NCBI GenBank assembly: GCA_013041925.1
Contig: JABDRB010000011.1
Coordinates: 186,001 to 250,000 of the forward strand
Source of the DNA: Akkermansiaceae bacterium
Lineage (GTDB): Bacteria > Verrucomicrobiota > Verrucomicrobiia > Verrucomicrobiales > Akkermansiaceae
Reading direction: 5' to 3'
Length of the DNA: 64,000 bases
Below the pieces are notes generated by a model. The model was not told where the DNA came from, ran no database searches, and saw nothing but the letters and a program-made list of their open reading frames with translations. The position numbers were made by a program, and so were the translations under genes. Each line of letters starts with the position of its first letter. The first letter of the stretch is position 1. Below, piece after piece: positions 18,218 to 23,027 of this stretch.

Positions 18218-20296
18218 CTACGCCAGCCCAGCACGCTCAAGCAGCGCCGTCTGATCGGGGTCGCGACCCATAAAGTTGCGGTAAAGTTCCTCAGCCGAGG
18301 CCGAGTTCCCTTTGCTTAAAATACATTCACGGAATGACTTCCCCGTTTCTGGATTGAGGATCCCCTCGTTTTGGAATCGGGTGAACGCATCCGCATCCAA
18401 CACCTCTGCCCATTTATAGGAGTAATAGCCGACGGCATATCCCGTGGGCGAACTGAAAAGATGACTGAACCGACGCGCAATCGTCGGGCTGGCGGTGGCC
18501 ATCGGCGTTTTATAGTCGGCAAGGATCTCGCGATCCACTTCATCCAGGTCGCGGCCTTGATAGTCGGCTAGCTTCATATGAAGATCAAGGTCGAGCTTGC
18601 CATTCGCGAGCTGCGCCATGTAGGCGCTGGCACTGCGGTAGTTTCTGGCCGCCACCATCTTCTGATAGAGGTCTTCGGGGATCGGCTCACCCGTTTCGTG
18701 ATGGCGGGCAAATAAATCTAAACTCTCGCGATCCCAGCAGTAGTTTTCCATAATCTGAGAGGGAAGCTCAACAAAGTCCCACGCAACATTCGTTCCAGAT
18801 AACGACTTGATACTGACATCGCCTAATAGGTGATGCAGCAGGTGCCCAAACTCATGAAAAATCGTCTCCACCTCACGATGATCCATGAGCGCAACTTGAT
18901 CGCCGATCGGCTTAGTCATATTCCCCACCATCAGGCCGAGGTGAGGTTCGCGTTCCGAGCCATCCACCCCATCAAGGGCAGGAAGCCCCGTTTCAAATGA
19001 GTTCATCCACGCACCACCACGCTTACTCTCACGCGGATGCCAATCAGCATAAAACGACCCCAGCAACTCGTCGCTAGCATTGTCAAAGAGGTCATAAAAA
19101 CGACACTCCGGATGCCACGTCTCGATGTCGCCACCTTGGTCCGTGGTTAATTTTTCCTCGATGCGGATGTTGTAAAGTCGACTGACAATACCAAACATCC
19201 CCTCCATCACACTCGTAAGCGGGAAGTAGGGGCGAAGCTCTTCTTCATCAAAATCGTATTCGGCCTTGCGGCGATTCTCCGCCCAGTAACTAATCTCCCA
19301 CGGCTGCATCGGCCCGGGTGCGGTGCCTGCCCGCGCTGCCTTCCACGCTTCAAGCTGCGTGATCTCATCCTGAAAACGACCCTCAATCCGATCATGCAAA
19401 TCATCCGTAAACTGAACAGCCGTCGCCCCATTACCCGCCATCCGACGCTCAAGCGTGAGGTCCGCAAAATCATTGTAACCCAACAACTCGGCCTTCTTCT
19501 GGCGGAGCTGAAGGATTTCCCAAATGATGTCGGTGTTATCAAACTCCCCATCACGCCCGATCGTGCAGGTGGCCTCCCATACTTCCTTGCGCAAGGCATC
19601 ATCGTCCGCGTGCTGCATCACCGGACCCATCGACGGATACTGGAGGGTAAACCGCCAGCTGCCCTCATGCCCCTTGGCCACCGCATCAGCCTGCGCCGCA
19701 TTTTTAGCGGAATCAGGTAAGCCCGCGAGCCGCGCTTCGTTATCGATGATCAGCTCCCAGGCATTGGTCGAGTCGAGCACATTCTCGCTGAACTTCTGCG
19801 TGATCTCAGAGAGTCGCGCCTGCACGTCCGCCACCTGGGATTTTTGATCGGCTGGGAGGTCCGCCCCCGATTGAATAAAGCTCGCGCACGTTTCCTCAAT
19901 AAAACGCGTGTGGGTGGCATCCAGAGCAGAGGCGGCGGCGGACTCGGAAAAGGCCTTGAGTTTCGACCAGATCACATCATCGAGTGGGATGGCAGAGTAA
20001 AAGGCGGTCACCCGTGGCAACACGGCATTGAGAGCCACACGTTGATCTTCATGATTGCAAACGGAATCAAGGTGGTTGAGTCGCCCCCACGCACGATCCA
20101 AGTCTTCGGTCGCCACCTCCAAGGCACCAAAGGTCTTTTCGTAGCTCAGTTCCGCATCATCAAGGTTGCGTATCTCAGCGAGTCGAGTCTCGGCCGATTC
20201 CAGCGCATGATCGATATCCGCCTCAACACAATCAGGCGTTAGAGTAGACCAACGAATATGATAATCGGCAGCAGAAAAGGGATGACGTGTTTGCAT
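18218..20296 (-). CDS. M3-family oligopeptidase (oligopeptidase A-like)
   Basis: A 692-residue zinc metallopeptidase that degrades short peptides in the cytoplasm. HEFGH (481-485) supplies two zinc ligands and the general base, and FVELPSQ (Glu510) the third ligand, at the spacing typical of M3. The helical N-terminal half and the C-terminal substrate-gating region, including the SYKWAEVLDADAF segment, match oligopeptidase A/PrlC. There is no signal peptide. It is convergent with the esterase gene and stands 100 bases after the glycosylase gene on the same strand. E. coli OpdA clears signal peptides and other fragments; the same role here is inferred. Confidence 0.9.
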   Translation of the reverse strand: MQTRHPFSAADYHIRWSTLTPDCVEADIDHALESAETRLAEIRNLDDAELSYEKTFGALEVATEDLDRAWGRLNHLDSVCNHEDQRVALNAVLPRVTAFYSAIPLDDVIWSKLKAFSESAAASALDATHTRFIEETCASFIQSGADLPADQKSQVADVQARLSEITQKFSENVLDSTNAWELIIDNEARLAGLPDSAKNAAQADAVAKGHEGSWRFTLQYPSMGPVMQHADDDALRKEVWEATCTIGRDGEFDNTDIIWEILQLRQKKAELLGYNDFADLTLERRMAGNGATAVQFTDDLHDRIEGRFQDEITQLEAWKAARAGTAPGPMQPWEISYWAENRRKAEYDFDEEELRPYFPLTSVMEGMFGIVSRLYNIRIEEKLTTDQGGDIETWHPECRFYDLFDNASDELLGSFYADWHPRESKRGGAWMNSFETGLPALDGVDGSEREPHLGLMVGNMTKPIGDQVALMDHREVETIFHEFGHLLHHLLGDVSIKSLSGTNVAWDFVELPSQIMENYCWDRESLDLFARHHETGEPIPEDLYQKMVAARNYRSASAYMAQLANGKLDLDLHMKLADYQGRDLDEVDREILADYKTPMATASPTIARRFSHLFSSPTGYAVGYYSYKWAEVLDADAFTRFQNEGILNPETGKSFRECILSKGNSASAEELYRNFMGRDPDQTALLERAGLA

Positions 20297-20396: not shown

Positions 20397-21281
20397 TCAT
20401 GATGGTTTCGACAGAAAATACCCTCGCTGCTTTTCACTCACAGCCATTTCCAACATGTCCATGACATTTAACATATCCTCCCAGAGCTTGCGCTTCTCAG
20501 CCGTCTCTTCGTTGTGCAAAATATACGACGGGTGATAGGTGACCCGCACCGGCACGCCTTCGAATCGATGAAACTCCCCCCGCAGACTCTCCACCGTCCC
20601 CTCGCCACCCAACAATGCCTGCGCAGGTGTGACGCCAAGCACGATGATGACCCGCGGTGCCACTACCTTCACTTCCTCATGCACAAACGGCATACAGGCA
20701 TCCATTTCCTGACGCGTCGGCTTGCGGTTATTGGTCGTCTGATTGGGCATCGACGGACGGTATTTCACCACGCTGGTCATATACACATCCCGTCTCGACA
20801 ATCCCATCGCCTTGAGAATCCCGTCAAGTTTTTGCCCCGCTTTCCCGACAAACGGCTCACCCAACCGCTCTTCATCATAGCCAGGTGCCTCCCCCACCAG
20901 CATCACATCCGCCTCCGGGTTCCCCATCGAAAACACCATCGTCTGACGTAGGCTGTCAAGCTCGCGGATCGGCCCCCAACTCGCAACCTGCTGCTTCAAA
21001 CTCATGATTTTTTCTGCAGCAGTGGCACCCGTCGCAACAAGCTGAGGTGCGCTTTCAGCCACATCAGCCGACTCGGCCACAGGCATCGACGGCAACTCCA
21101 CCACCGGTGATTCTTGAGGCGCAGCAGCTCGGATGACAGGTGCTGCTCGTTGACCCGCCCCCCCACGCGCACGCAGGTAAAATTCACGCAGGATGAGACG
21201 CGCCTCATCATCGATGTTGACATGTGTCTGGCCCTGCGACTCCAACTGGCGCAGGTAATCGATCACGGGTGCGGCACTCAT
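20397..21281 (-). CDS. Uracil-DNA glycosylase superfamily, family 4-like, lacking most Fe-S ligands
   Basis: A 294-residue protein whose C-terminal ~200 residues match family 4 uracil-DNA glycosylases: GEAPGYDE (130-137) is the active-site loop, GEPFVGKAGQ follows, and VTYHPSYIL (248-256) is the second active-site motif. Family 4 enzymes bind a [4Fe-4S] cluster through four cysteines. Here the N-terminal pair is replaced by SWGPIRELDSLRQ and the cysteine of KCRP by tyrosine (KYRP, Tyr174), leaving only Cys196. The first ~90 residues form a proline/alanine-rich extension. The start at 21281 (MSAAPVIDYL) is preferred over longer frames. The role is expected to be uracil removal from DNA, probably without a cluster. 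Confidence 0.8.
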   Translation of the reverse strand: MSAAPVIDYLRQLESQGQTHVNIDDEARLILREFYLRARGGAGQRAAPVIRAAAPQESPVVELPSMPVAESADVAESAPQLVATGATAAEKIMSLKQQVASWGPIRELDSLRQTMVFSMGNPEADVMLVGEAPGYDEERLGEPFVGKAGQKLDGILKAMGLSRRDVYMTSVVKYRPSMPNQTTNNRKPTRQEMDACMPFVHEEVKVVAPRVIIVLGVTPAQALLGGEGTVESLRGEFHRFEGVPVRVTYHPSYILHNEETAEKRKLWEDMLNVMDMLEMAVSEKQRGYFLSKPS

Positions 21282-21524
21282 TGTCATGACCCATGCAAAC
21301 CATAGCATGAGGTCGACGGCACGCACAAAATGATGCCACCACGGATATCCTTGTGAAAAAACCGCCCCCCCCCCTGAGTTTTTCCTGAGATTTCAGATCG
21401 TTGATCCCGCGGTTGTTTTTTTGCCCCGCTCTTGACAGCCTCCCCGCCCGCCATAGCTTTATTGCCCATCGCAACGATGGCCCCCCCAGTCCACCACGCC
21501 GCCAACAACCTGACCATCACTCCC

Positions 21525-23027
21525 ATGAATGACAAACTTCGCCGCACCCTTGTCCTTCTCGCTGTCTTCTGCATAACCTTTCTCGCCGTCTATGTCATCC
21601 GGCACCTCCAAGACGGTCACCGCCTCAAAGACATCCTCACTTGGCACAAATCCGACACCCGCAGCGAGACCTACACCCTTCGCAGTAGCCCGTCCATCGA
21701 CCTCAACGAAGTCGAGGTCCTCGCCGCCATCAACCAAGAAAGCGCCGCCATCGTCCGGGCCGCCATGCCCGCCGTCGTCAGCATCGACACCTCCGGCGTC
21801 CGCCACGAACGCTACCGCGACTTCTGGGGACGCACCTGGGTCCAGCCAAGCACCGTCCAAGGTCAAGGGTCCGGTGTCATCGTCACCGAGGAAGGACACG
21901 TCCTAACCAACCACCACGTCATTCAAGGCACACCCAACATCCGACTCACTCTGCACGATGGCAGCGTCTACTCAGCTAAAGTCATCGGCACCGACCCCGC
22001 CGTCGATATCGCCGTGCTCAAAATCGATGACAAGGGGCCCTTCCAACCACTCAAATTCGGCGATTCGTCAAAAATCGAGGTCGGCAACATCGTCTTTGCT
22101 GTCGGCAACCCGTTCGGGCTCGGCAAGTCCGTGACCGATGGCAAGATCTCCGCGAAAAAACGCTCGTTCTCAGACAGCCAGGTCGACCTCCTCCAAACCT
22201 CCGCCGCCATCAATCCCGGAAATTCCGGAGGCCCGCTGGTCAATATCCGCGGGGAAATCATCGGTATCAACTCCCGGATCTACTCGACCGATAAAAAAAA
22301 CCCAGGCTTCCAAGGCATCGGATTTGCCATCCCATCCAATGCCGCACTGGAAACCATGAAATCTATCCTCGCCCGCGGACGCCCCACCCGTGGATTCCTC
22401 GGCATGGCCCTCGAAAACCTCGATCCCTTCACCCGCAAACAGTTAAACTTCAAACAAACCCATGGCGTCAGGGTCGCCGGACTCGTCCCCCAGTCGCCCG
22501 CCACCCAAGCCGGTCTCCGCCCAAACGATATCATCACCCGCTTCAATGGCACCCAGGTGCGTAACACACGTCAGCTCATCACCCTGATCCAGCAAAGCAA
22601 GATCAACTCAGATGTCCGCATCGAAATCTGGCGAGACGGAGCCCAACGCACCCTCACCGCTACCATGCGCGACGCCAGTGATTTCAATCAAAATGCCACC
22701 CGCAAAAAGCCCCCTCATCCCAACCAGCACGTCGACACCCAAGCCATCCTCACCGCACTCGGCATCTACGTCCGAGAACCCACCCACACCGAGAGATCTC
22801 AAGGTGTCGATGGCGTGATCATTTCCAAAATCAGCCGCCAAAGCCAACTCCTAGGGAAACTCCGTATCGGCGACGTCATCCGCGCCATCAACAGCCGACG
22901 GGCGCAAAGTGCCGATGACTTCCTCACACGCCTCGCCGCCTCCGCAGCAGTCCAAGACACGGAGCTCTTAGTCAAAAGAGGCGAGCTTTCATTCCGCATC
23001 ACCCTCTCCCGCGTCCGCACACGCTAG
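21525..23027 (+). CDS. HtrA/DegP-type serine protease with two PDZ domains
   Basis: A 500-residue envelope protease. One membrane anchor or uncleaved signal (residues ~7-24) is followed by a trypsin-like domain with His131 (TNHHVIQG), Asp161 (AVDIAVLKI) and Ser234 (INPGNSGGPL). PDZ1 follows at roughly 285-385 (GFLGMALENL...SPATQAGLRPNDIITRFNG) and PDZ2 at about 410-495. It degrades or refolds damaged periplasmic proteins. The open frame begins at 21432, but the ATG at 21525 places the hydrophobic segment at the N-terminus. With the RseP-like gene 400 bases downstream it suggests a local envelope stress-response group. Its stop codon lies inside a tandem repeat. Confidence 0.9.
   Translation: MNDKLRRTLVLLAVFCITFLAVYVIRHLQDGHRLKDILTWHKSDTRSETYTLRSSPSIDLNEVEVLAAINQESAAIVRAAMPAVVSIDTSGVRHERYRDFWGRTWVQPSTVQGQGSGVIVTEEGHVLTNHHVIQGTPNIRLTLHDGSVYSAKVIGTDPAVDIAVLKIDDKGPFQPLKFGDSSKIEVGNIVFAVGNPFGLGKSVTDGKISAKKRSFSDSQVDLLQTSAAINPGNSGGPLVNIRGEIIGINSRIYSTDKKNPGFQGIGFAIPSNAALETMKSILARGRPTRGFLGMALENLDPFTRKQLNFKQTHGVRVAGLVPQSPATQAGLRPNDIITRFNGTQVRNTRQLITLIQQSKINSDVRIEIWRDGAQRTLTATMRDASDFNQNATRKKPPHPNQHVDTQAILTALGIYVREPTHTERSQGVDGVIISKISRQSQLLGKLRIGDVIRAINSRRAQSADDFLTRLAASAAVQDTELLVKRGELSFRITLSRVRTR

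Follow-up and report, generated by a model that had tools for sequence, protein, structure and literature searches.

Loss of Iron–Sulfur Cluster Cysteines in a Family 4-Type Uracil-DNA Glycosylase, Shared across a Bacterial Order and Its Neighbours

Introduction

The role of the Fe-S cluster in DNA glycosylases is debated, with structure, DNA binding, and redox communication along DNA each having been considered. A uracil-DNA glycosylase (UDG) gene in the 64,000-nucleotide stretch of Akkermansiaceae DNA that we analyzed, referred to here as the window, raises the question of whether a family 4 enzyme can part with its cluster and still be maintained as a glycosylase. The relatives of this gene provide a natural series from four to zero cluster Cys residues within one enzyme family and one bacterial class, in which the role of the cluster can be tested by comparing neighbours rather than single mutants. 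If the reading proposed below is true, a lineage carrying an aromatic plug would show that the cluster is dispensable for folding, catalysis, and any essential redox signalling in these cells. Annotation of a protein as family 4 does not imply an iron-sulfur protein. Among the openly licensed literature matches listed, judged by titles and abstract starts, there is no description of cluster-less family 4 enzymes, and an earlier description is possible.

Results and Discussion

The gene and its product

The gene lies on the minus strand exactly where the first-pass annotation of the window had placed a UDG reading frame, and its ATG start matches those of its homologues (M..A.PLI.YLR). The features that are needed below are as follows.

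20397..21281, minus strand: gene for a family-4-type uracil-DNA glycosylase without cluster ligands, 294 aa, stop included (PF03167, E 2.7e-37; TIGR00758; fold)
21162..21281, minus strand: N-terminal segment, residues 1–40, two predicted helices (predicted model; homologue matches)
21027..21161, minus strand: Pro/Ala-rich linker, residues 41–85, with 41–77 predicted disordered (pLDDT <50 over 41–77)
20976..20978, minus strand: W102, column of the first ligand Cys (alignment)
20967..20969, minus strand: I105, column of the second ligand Cys (alignment)
20880..20894, minus strand: motif A, GEAPG, residues 130–134, in which E131 aligns with E41 of the Thermus thermophilus enzyme, TthUDGa (alignment)
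20772..20774, minus strand: S170 (AGC), column of the uracil-reading Asn, TthUDGa N80 (alignment)
20760..20762, minus strand: Y174 (TAC), column of the third ligand Cys, TthUDGa C84, within KYRP, 173–176 (alignment)
20694..20696, minus strand: C196 (TGT), column of the fourth ligand, sole Cys of the protein (alignment, Cys count)
20523..20537, minus strand: motif B, YHPSY, residues 249–253, in which H250 aligns with TthUDGa H155 (alignment)

A putative M3-type peptidase gene (18218–20296, minus strand) is next on the same strand, as it is in the near relatives L003–L008, and a putative HtrA-like gene (21432–23027, plus strand) lies divergently upstream, as it does in L003, L004, L005, L007, and L008. 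This synteny is conserved, has no obvious functional link to the UDG, and says nothing about function.

Family membership

The protein scores 165.6 bits against the NCBIfam profile for family 4 UDGs (TIGR00758; cut-off 125.3). Its predicted model, made with an alignment of eight sequences, has a mean pLDDT of 76.1, with moderate values near the former cluster site (76–77 over residues 101–120 and 70–72 over 171–190). The model matches the family 4 structures 1vk2, 1l9g, 1ui0, and 1ui1 with Z 23.9–24.7 over 182–188 residues, the best match being 1vk2 (Z 24.7 over 187 residues). Across the family 4 enzymes of T. thermophilus (1ui0), T. maritima (1vk2), and S. tokodaii (4zby), Z is 23.6–24.7 at 32–35% identity. 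The likeness includes the GEAPG and HPS motifs, in keeping with the family 4 motifs A, GE(A/G)PG, and B, HP(A/S), as given in PMC10359453, and the columns of TthUDGa E41, E47, F54, N89, and H155. The protein differs from these enzymes in that three of the four cluster Cys residues are gone, the third ligand is replaced by an aromatic residue, and Asn80 is replaced by Ser. A further difference from 1ui0, a six-residue insert after KYRP, also occurs in relatives from the same class with four Cys and is therefore not specific to the cluster-less group.

Other families fit less well. UdgX (M. smegmatis, 6ail and others) is similar in fold (Z ∼23), but the protein scores 130.7 bits against the UdgX profile TIGR03914, under the cut-off of 189.95, and has neither GEQPG nor the KRRIH loop of UdgX, carrying GEAPG instead and SMPNQTTNNRKP in the loop region. 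The four UdgX-like rows of our alignment also keep C, C, H, and C in the ligand columns, unlike the window protein. The SMUG1 (family 3) motifs GMNPG and HPSPRN (PMC10359453) are likewise absent, the corresponding sequences being GEAPG and YHPSY. Profile, fold, and descent thus put the protein in family 4, whereas a strict definition by the Fe-S cluster does not.

Cysteine loss in the protein and its relatives

We aligned the protein with its relatives and followed four columns, which we take to be those of the [4Fe-4S] ligands of family 4, consistent with the alignment to 1ui0. In the window protein these columns hold W102, I105, Y174, and C196. The first-pass annotation had reported that the N-terminal C-x-x-C is gone, that KCRP reads KYRP, and that only Cys196 is left, and each of these points is borne out: SWGPI runs from residue 101 and puts W102 and I105 in the first two columns, Y174 within residues 173–176 occupies the third, and C196 is the sole Cys in 294 aa. 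Four Cys ligands are thus impossible in this protein, and the possibility that other cysteines fill the ligand roles, which the annotation had named as grounds for withdrawing its proposal, falls away with the same count.

The alignment holds 161 distinct relatives, 17 of the 178 extracted rows having been removed as identical over the domain. The third-ligand column is aromatic in 87 of the 161 rows (Phe 66, Tyr 14, Trp 7), a proportion that is no census, since the rows are mostly best-scoring matches or come from picked genomes. Cys occupies this column in 70 rows, all of which have four Cys, and His in the four UdgX-like rows. No aromatic row has Cys in all four columns; three Cys are found in 2 rows, two in 11, one in 53, and none in 21. 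By column, Cys persists among these 87 rows in 10 at the first position, 10 at the second, and 61 at the fourth. In the 43 aligned rows that are at least 55% identical to the window protein over the domain, the third column never holds Cys and the first or second does so in a single row (L041), a consistency which argues that the loss in the window protein is not a matter of chance. Near neighbours L003, L006, and L008 have Cys in none of the four columns.

Intermediate states occur as well. In L045, L155, L156, and L157 the CxxC is intact, the third column is Phe, and the fourth is Ala or Ser, and three Cys remain around a third-column Tyr in L150 (C C Y C) or Trp in L127 (C C W C). Among 28 rows added from 22 further genomes, picked mostly for lacking a match to the KCRP pattern described below, the third column is Trp or Tyr in 17, four Cys are present in 8, and 3 rows show other arrangements (L326, L329, L330).

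In a neighbouring group (L126, L127, L143, L308, L310–L312, L314–L323, L325) the third column is Trp, often as MNWRP. Here D-x-x-C often replaces C-x-x-C and the fourth Cys is kept; the members of this group represent extant intermediates in the disappearance of the Cys residues.

Trp, Ile, and Tyr are unusual iron ligands, which counts against the notion that a cluster is still bound, whether through non-Cys ligands or by sharing between subunits through C196. The retention of the fourth-column Cys in 61 of the 87 aromatic rows speaks for such binding, as does the third-column His of the UdgX-like rows, UdgX being described as a 4Fe-4S protein (PMC10359453), but the 21 aromatic rows that lack Cys at all four positions, L003, L006, and L008 among them, leave it highly unlikely. 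The loss of the cluster Cys residues is derived and shared across one bacterial order and its neighbours. The earlier description of the protein as a structural variant of family 4 therefore holds in so far as profile, fold, and tree place it there with three ligands gone, but the protein is one of a large group and does not stand alone.

Pattern scans of genomes

As an even-handed check on the counts from selected rows, we scanned genomes with DNA patterns, using the reversed pattern as the control. The order, inferred to be Verrucomicrobiales, is represented by 189 genomes, of which 177 have a match to the family 4 profile and 12 have none. The KCRP pattern, N-[IVM]-x-K-C-[RS]-P, matches 13 of the 189 genomes (reversed control, 6 genomes). 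A UDG frame was sought at 11 of these 13 matches and none of them lies in a UDG, while the other two (G443, G481) and the UDG matches of the same genomes are on different contigs. With K[FY]RP as the pattern, 148 of the 189 genomes match (reversed control, 17); these are raw matches, a few listed ones lying outside UDG places. This pattern is blind to Trp rows, and Ser170 keeps the window gene from matching it. In a class-wide scan the KCRP pattern matches 140 of 236 genomes (reversed control, 11). The order contributes 42 of these 236 genomes with 3 matches, and the raw matches outside the order number 137 of 194, which shows that the pattern works where the Cys is present.

History of the loss

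Trees were built with the four ligand columns masked and with rows thinned by identity. In a quick tree of 128 rows, with the outgroup limited to 12, all the aromatic rows fall into a single clade (SH-aLRT 87). Two further trees, of 66 and 73 rows, exclude the UdgX-like rows, the degenerate rows discussed below, and L168. In the 66-row careful tree a single change divides the rows with four Cys from the others. In the 73-row tree, the bootstrap of which is not fully settled, the group of the order (28 rows) and the Trp group (13 rows) each receive 100/99 and are joined with 89/94; both groups lie among rows with four Cys, and L132 and L142 are unplaced. The third column requires three changes on this tree, including one that accounts for the distant row L326, and the minimum numbers for the first, second, and fourth columns are 10, 7, and 9. 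Constraining all 43 aromatic rows to group together gives a log-likelihood 1.08 above that of the free tree (p-AU 0.515), and the constrained tree being as likely, one loss of the third ligand in these 43 rows fits as well as two. Taken together, the trees suggest between one and three losses of the third ligand, one loss fitting as well as more. Since the first, second, and fourth columns need many more changes than the third, loss of the third ligand probably came first, with repeated erosion of the other Cys residues afterwards.

The trees also bear on an objection that the first-pass annotation had raised to its own proposal, namely an origin in a superfamily branch without any history of a cluster; the short phage-borne UDG-like proteins would be an example. 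Residues in the two CxxC columns are indeed missing from 24 of 68 distinct viral relatives (from the best 80 of 225 matches), but the N-terminal region of the window protein is complete, and its tree neighbours outside the group, in trees of cellular rows with viral rows left out, have four Cys. The window protein is thus nested among relatives with four Cys, and we regard an origin without a cluster as very improbable. The 24 viral rows (within L180–L259, the best 80 of 225; for example, L200, L218, L219, L226, and L227) represent a shorter cluster-less form on viral contigs, in which the third column is varied and E41, F54, N80, and H155 are kept.

Ser170 and the state of the active site

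The active-site motifs had been called intact in the first-pass annotation, and this is correct for GEAPG (130–134) and YHPSY (249–253), but the Asn that pairs with uracil is replaced by Ser170. In the 161 rows, the TthUDGa N80 column holds Asn in 148, His in 8, Tyr in 3, Pro in 1, and Ser in the window protein only; where His, Tyr, or Pro stands there (12 rows), other catalytic residues are changed too. Among the 28 later rows Ser occurs in two, L313 and L329. L313 is a class relative with four Cys (TSVLKCRP), and its Ser suggests that the change from Asn arose more than once. In TthUDGa, N80 makes two hydrogen bonds to uracil, reading N3 and O4, and the N80A variant has a k2/Km of 5.5e3 as compared to 2.4e5 (PMC5387724, Table 1). 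The corresponding N91A variant of UDGX is reported to be inactive yet folded (PMC10776899). By these precedents the window copy may have lost much function. Ser170 may weaken or broaden the activity of the enzyme; it may also be a single-base difference that is confined to the strain or introduced in assembly.

We considered the possibility that the gene is becoming non-catalytic or specialised, with the Asn-to-Ser change having removed useful uracil activity and a SMUG1-like enzyme doing the repair. In favour of this reading are Ser170, an unusual Ile-to-Met change two residues before it, and a later Ala-to-Pro change. The lineage does yield such proteins: its family includes 12 degenerate rows, and for three of these (L169, L170, L179) the genome has just one family 4 match. 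Proteins termed "family 7" are described as inactivated family 4 enzymes (PMC5295032). An enzyme for repair would be available, since the only other PF03167 match of the genome, on contig C7 (L002), has GMNPG and HPSP. The window protein, however, departs from 3 of 39 near-invariant columns, as compared to 7–13 in the degenerate rows; the 75 aromatic rows that were kept, the window protein included, average 0.55. The window protein retains E131, F144, N185, and H250 in the alignment and has one recognition residue changed. Comparison of the gene with four near relatives gives pN/pS of 0.29–0.33 (pS 0.74–0.85), which indicates that selection keeps it. Finally, family 1 ung was sought in the window genome and not found (control positive in 6 of 14 genomes), so that uracil repair would have to rest on the SMUG1-like enzyme. 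We judge a turn to a non-catalytic or specialised protein unlikely.

A shift in specificity has about the same low standing in our estimation. Here Ser170 would open the base pocket, and other deaminated or modified bases would be removed besides uracil or instead of it. In favour of such a shift, the Asn at this position reads uracil N3 and O4 (PMC5387724), and the position is occupied by K68 in MUG (PMC10776899), by Ser in the four-Cys relative L313, and by Ala in the distant rows L331–L334 and L336, alignment at that distance being uncertain. The other pocket residues that were compared are unchanged, however, and a Ser seen in a single species could be close to neutral or harmful. We retain the reading of a family 4 descendant with altered activity: with Ser where near relatives have Asn, activity on uracil is probably lower, or the choice of base broader.

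The 12 degenerate rows (L160–L167, L173, L169, L170, L179) are candidate pseudo-enzymes in their own right, having altered catalytic residues in long open frames, with various sets of E41 to Asp or Gly, F54 to Leu, N80 to His, Tyr, or Pro, and H155 to Asn, Ser, or Ala. L160–L167 and L173 come from nine genomes of group g2, each as a second copy next to one with active motifs; L169, L170, and L179 are from genomes with one family 4 match only. The window protein resembles "family 7" in being derived from family 4 (PMC5295032) and differs in keeping motifs A and B; L160–L167 and others among the degenerate rows fit "family 7" better.

The N-terminal extension

The protein had also been credited with a 90-residue Pro/Ala-rich extension as part of its variant character. 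The composition applies to residues 41–80, which are 40% Pro plus Ala, but not to residues 1–40, which are 12% Pro plus Ala and form two predicted helices. Many class-level matches to the protein start at query residue 5–10. Among relatives with four Cys, a similar N-terminal segment is present in L107 (E 1.6e-4) and weakly in L111 (E 0.021), with still weaker matches in L104 (E 0.27) and L117 (E 0.17); it was sought in L100, L106, L110, L116, L129, L010, and L012, and no match was seen in these. The matching segment in some four-Cys relatives, L107 in particular, means that the extension is not tied to the loss of Cys and drops out of the case for a variant.

A proposed explanation

The account that we consider probable is of a family 4 descendant in which an aromatic residue replaced the third ligand, the other Cys residues eroded, aromatic packing keeps an iron-free fold, and Ser170 alters activity. 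The ancestor would have been a [4Fe-4S] family 4 UDG in which an aromatic residue took the place of the KCRP Cys, probably as the first step, and the other three Cys residues, freed from holding the cluster, would then have been lost piecemeal. The aromatic residue at 174 would pack in the cluster site with W102 and aliphatic neighbours, holding the N-terminal loop, once anchored by CxxC, to the core, and the fold would thereby persist without iron. Catalysis would proceed as in family 4, whose enzymes act on uracil in single- and double-stranded DNA, with F144 stacking uracil, H250 stabilizing the leaving uracil, and N185 placing water, by analogy to TthUDGa F54, H155, and N89. The loss of Cys, its aromatic replacement, the nesting within family 4, and the predicted fold are results of the analysis; the absence of the cluster, the aromatic packing, the activity on uracil, and the effect of Ser170 we infer.

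The literature is consistent with parts of this account. The family 4 cluster is described as stabilizing a flexible loop, and Cys-to-Ser variants of the P. furiosus and A. fulgidus enzymes lost ∼40% of activity (PMC5295032); these variants being only partly impaired, aromatic filling of the cluster site is plausible. The zincless-finger glycosylases of the NEIL1 type similarly keep the fold of a metal site after losing its ligands (PMC9266487), though fold and metal are different and the likeness is an analogy only. Against the proposal, redox activity is reported for the cluster of the A. fulgidus enzyme (PMC9266487), and the window protein would lack any role of this kind. Nor does the model explain why 61 of the 87 aromatic rows still have the fourth Cys. 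For the broader statement, the chances seem to us about even: that in the order and its neighbours an aromatic plug has replaced the [4Fe-4S] cluster of a family 4 UDG that is active, with the third ligand lost first, relatives with three to zero Cys remaining, and the base-reading residue changed further in the window protein.

Other Fe-S repair enzymes of the genome

A general loss of Fe-S repair enzymes is not seen in the window genome at the level of sequence: CX6CX2CX5C is intact in MutY, and four Cys with the spacing CX4CX4CX2C are present in Nth. The C-terminal Cys residues are spaced as CX4CX4CX2C or similarly in the Nth of this genome and of its nearest class relatives (L260/L262, L266–L275), while the Nth of other class members has a CX6CX2CX5C-type loop, unlike that of the window genome.
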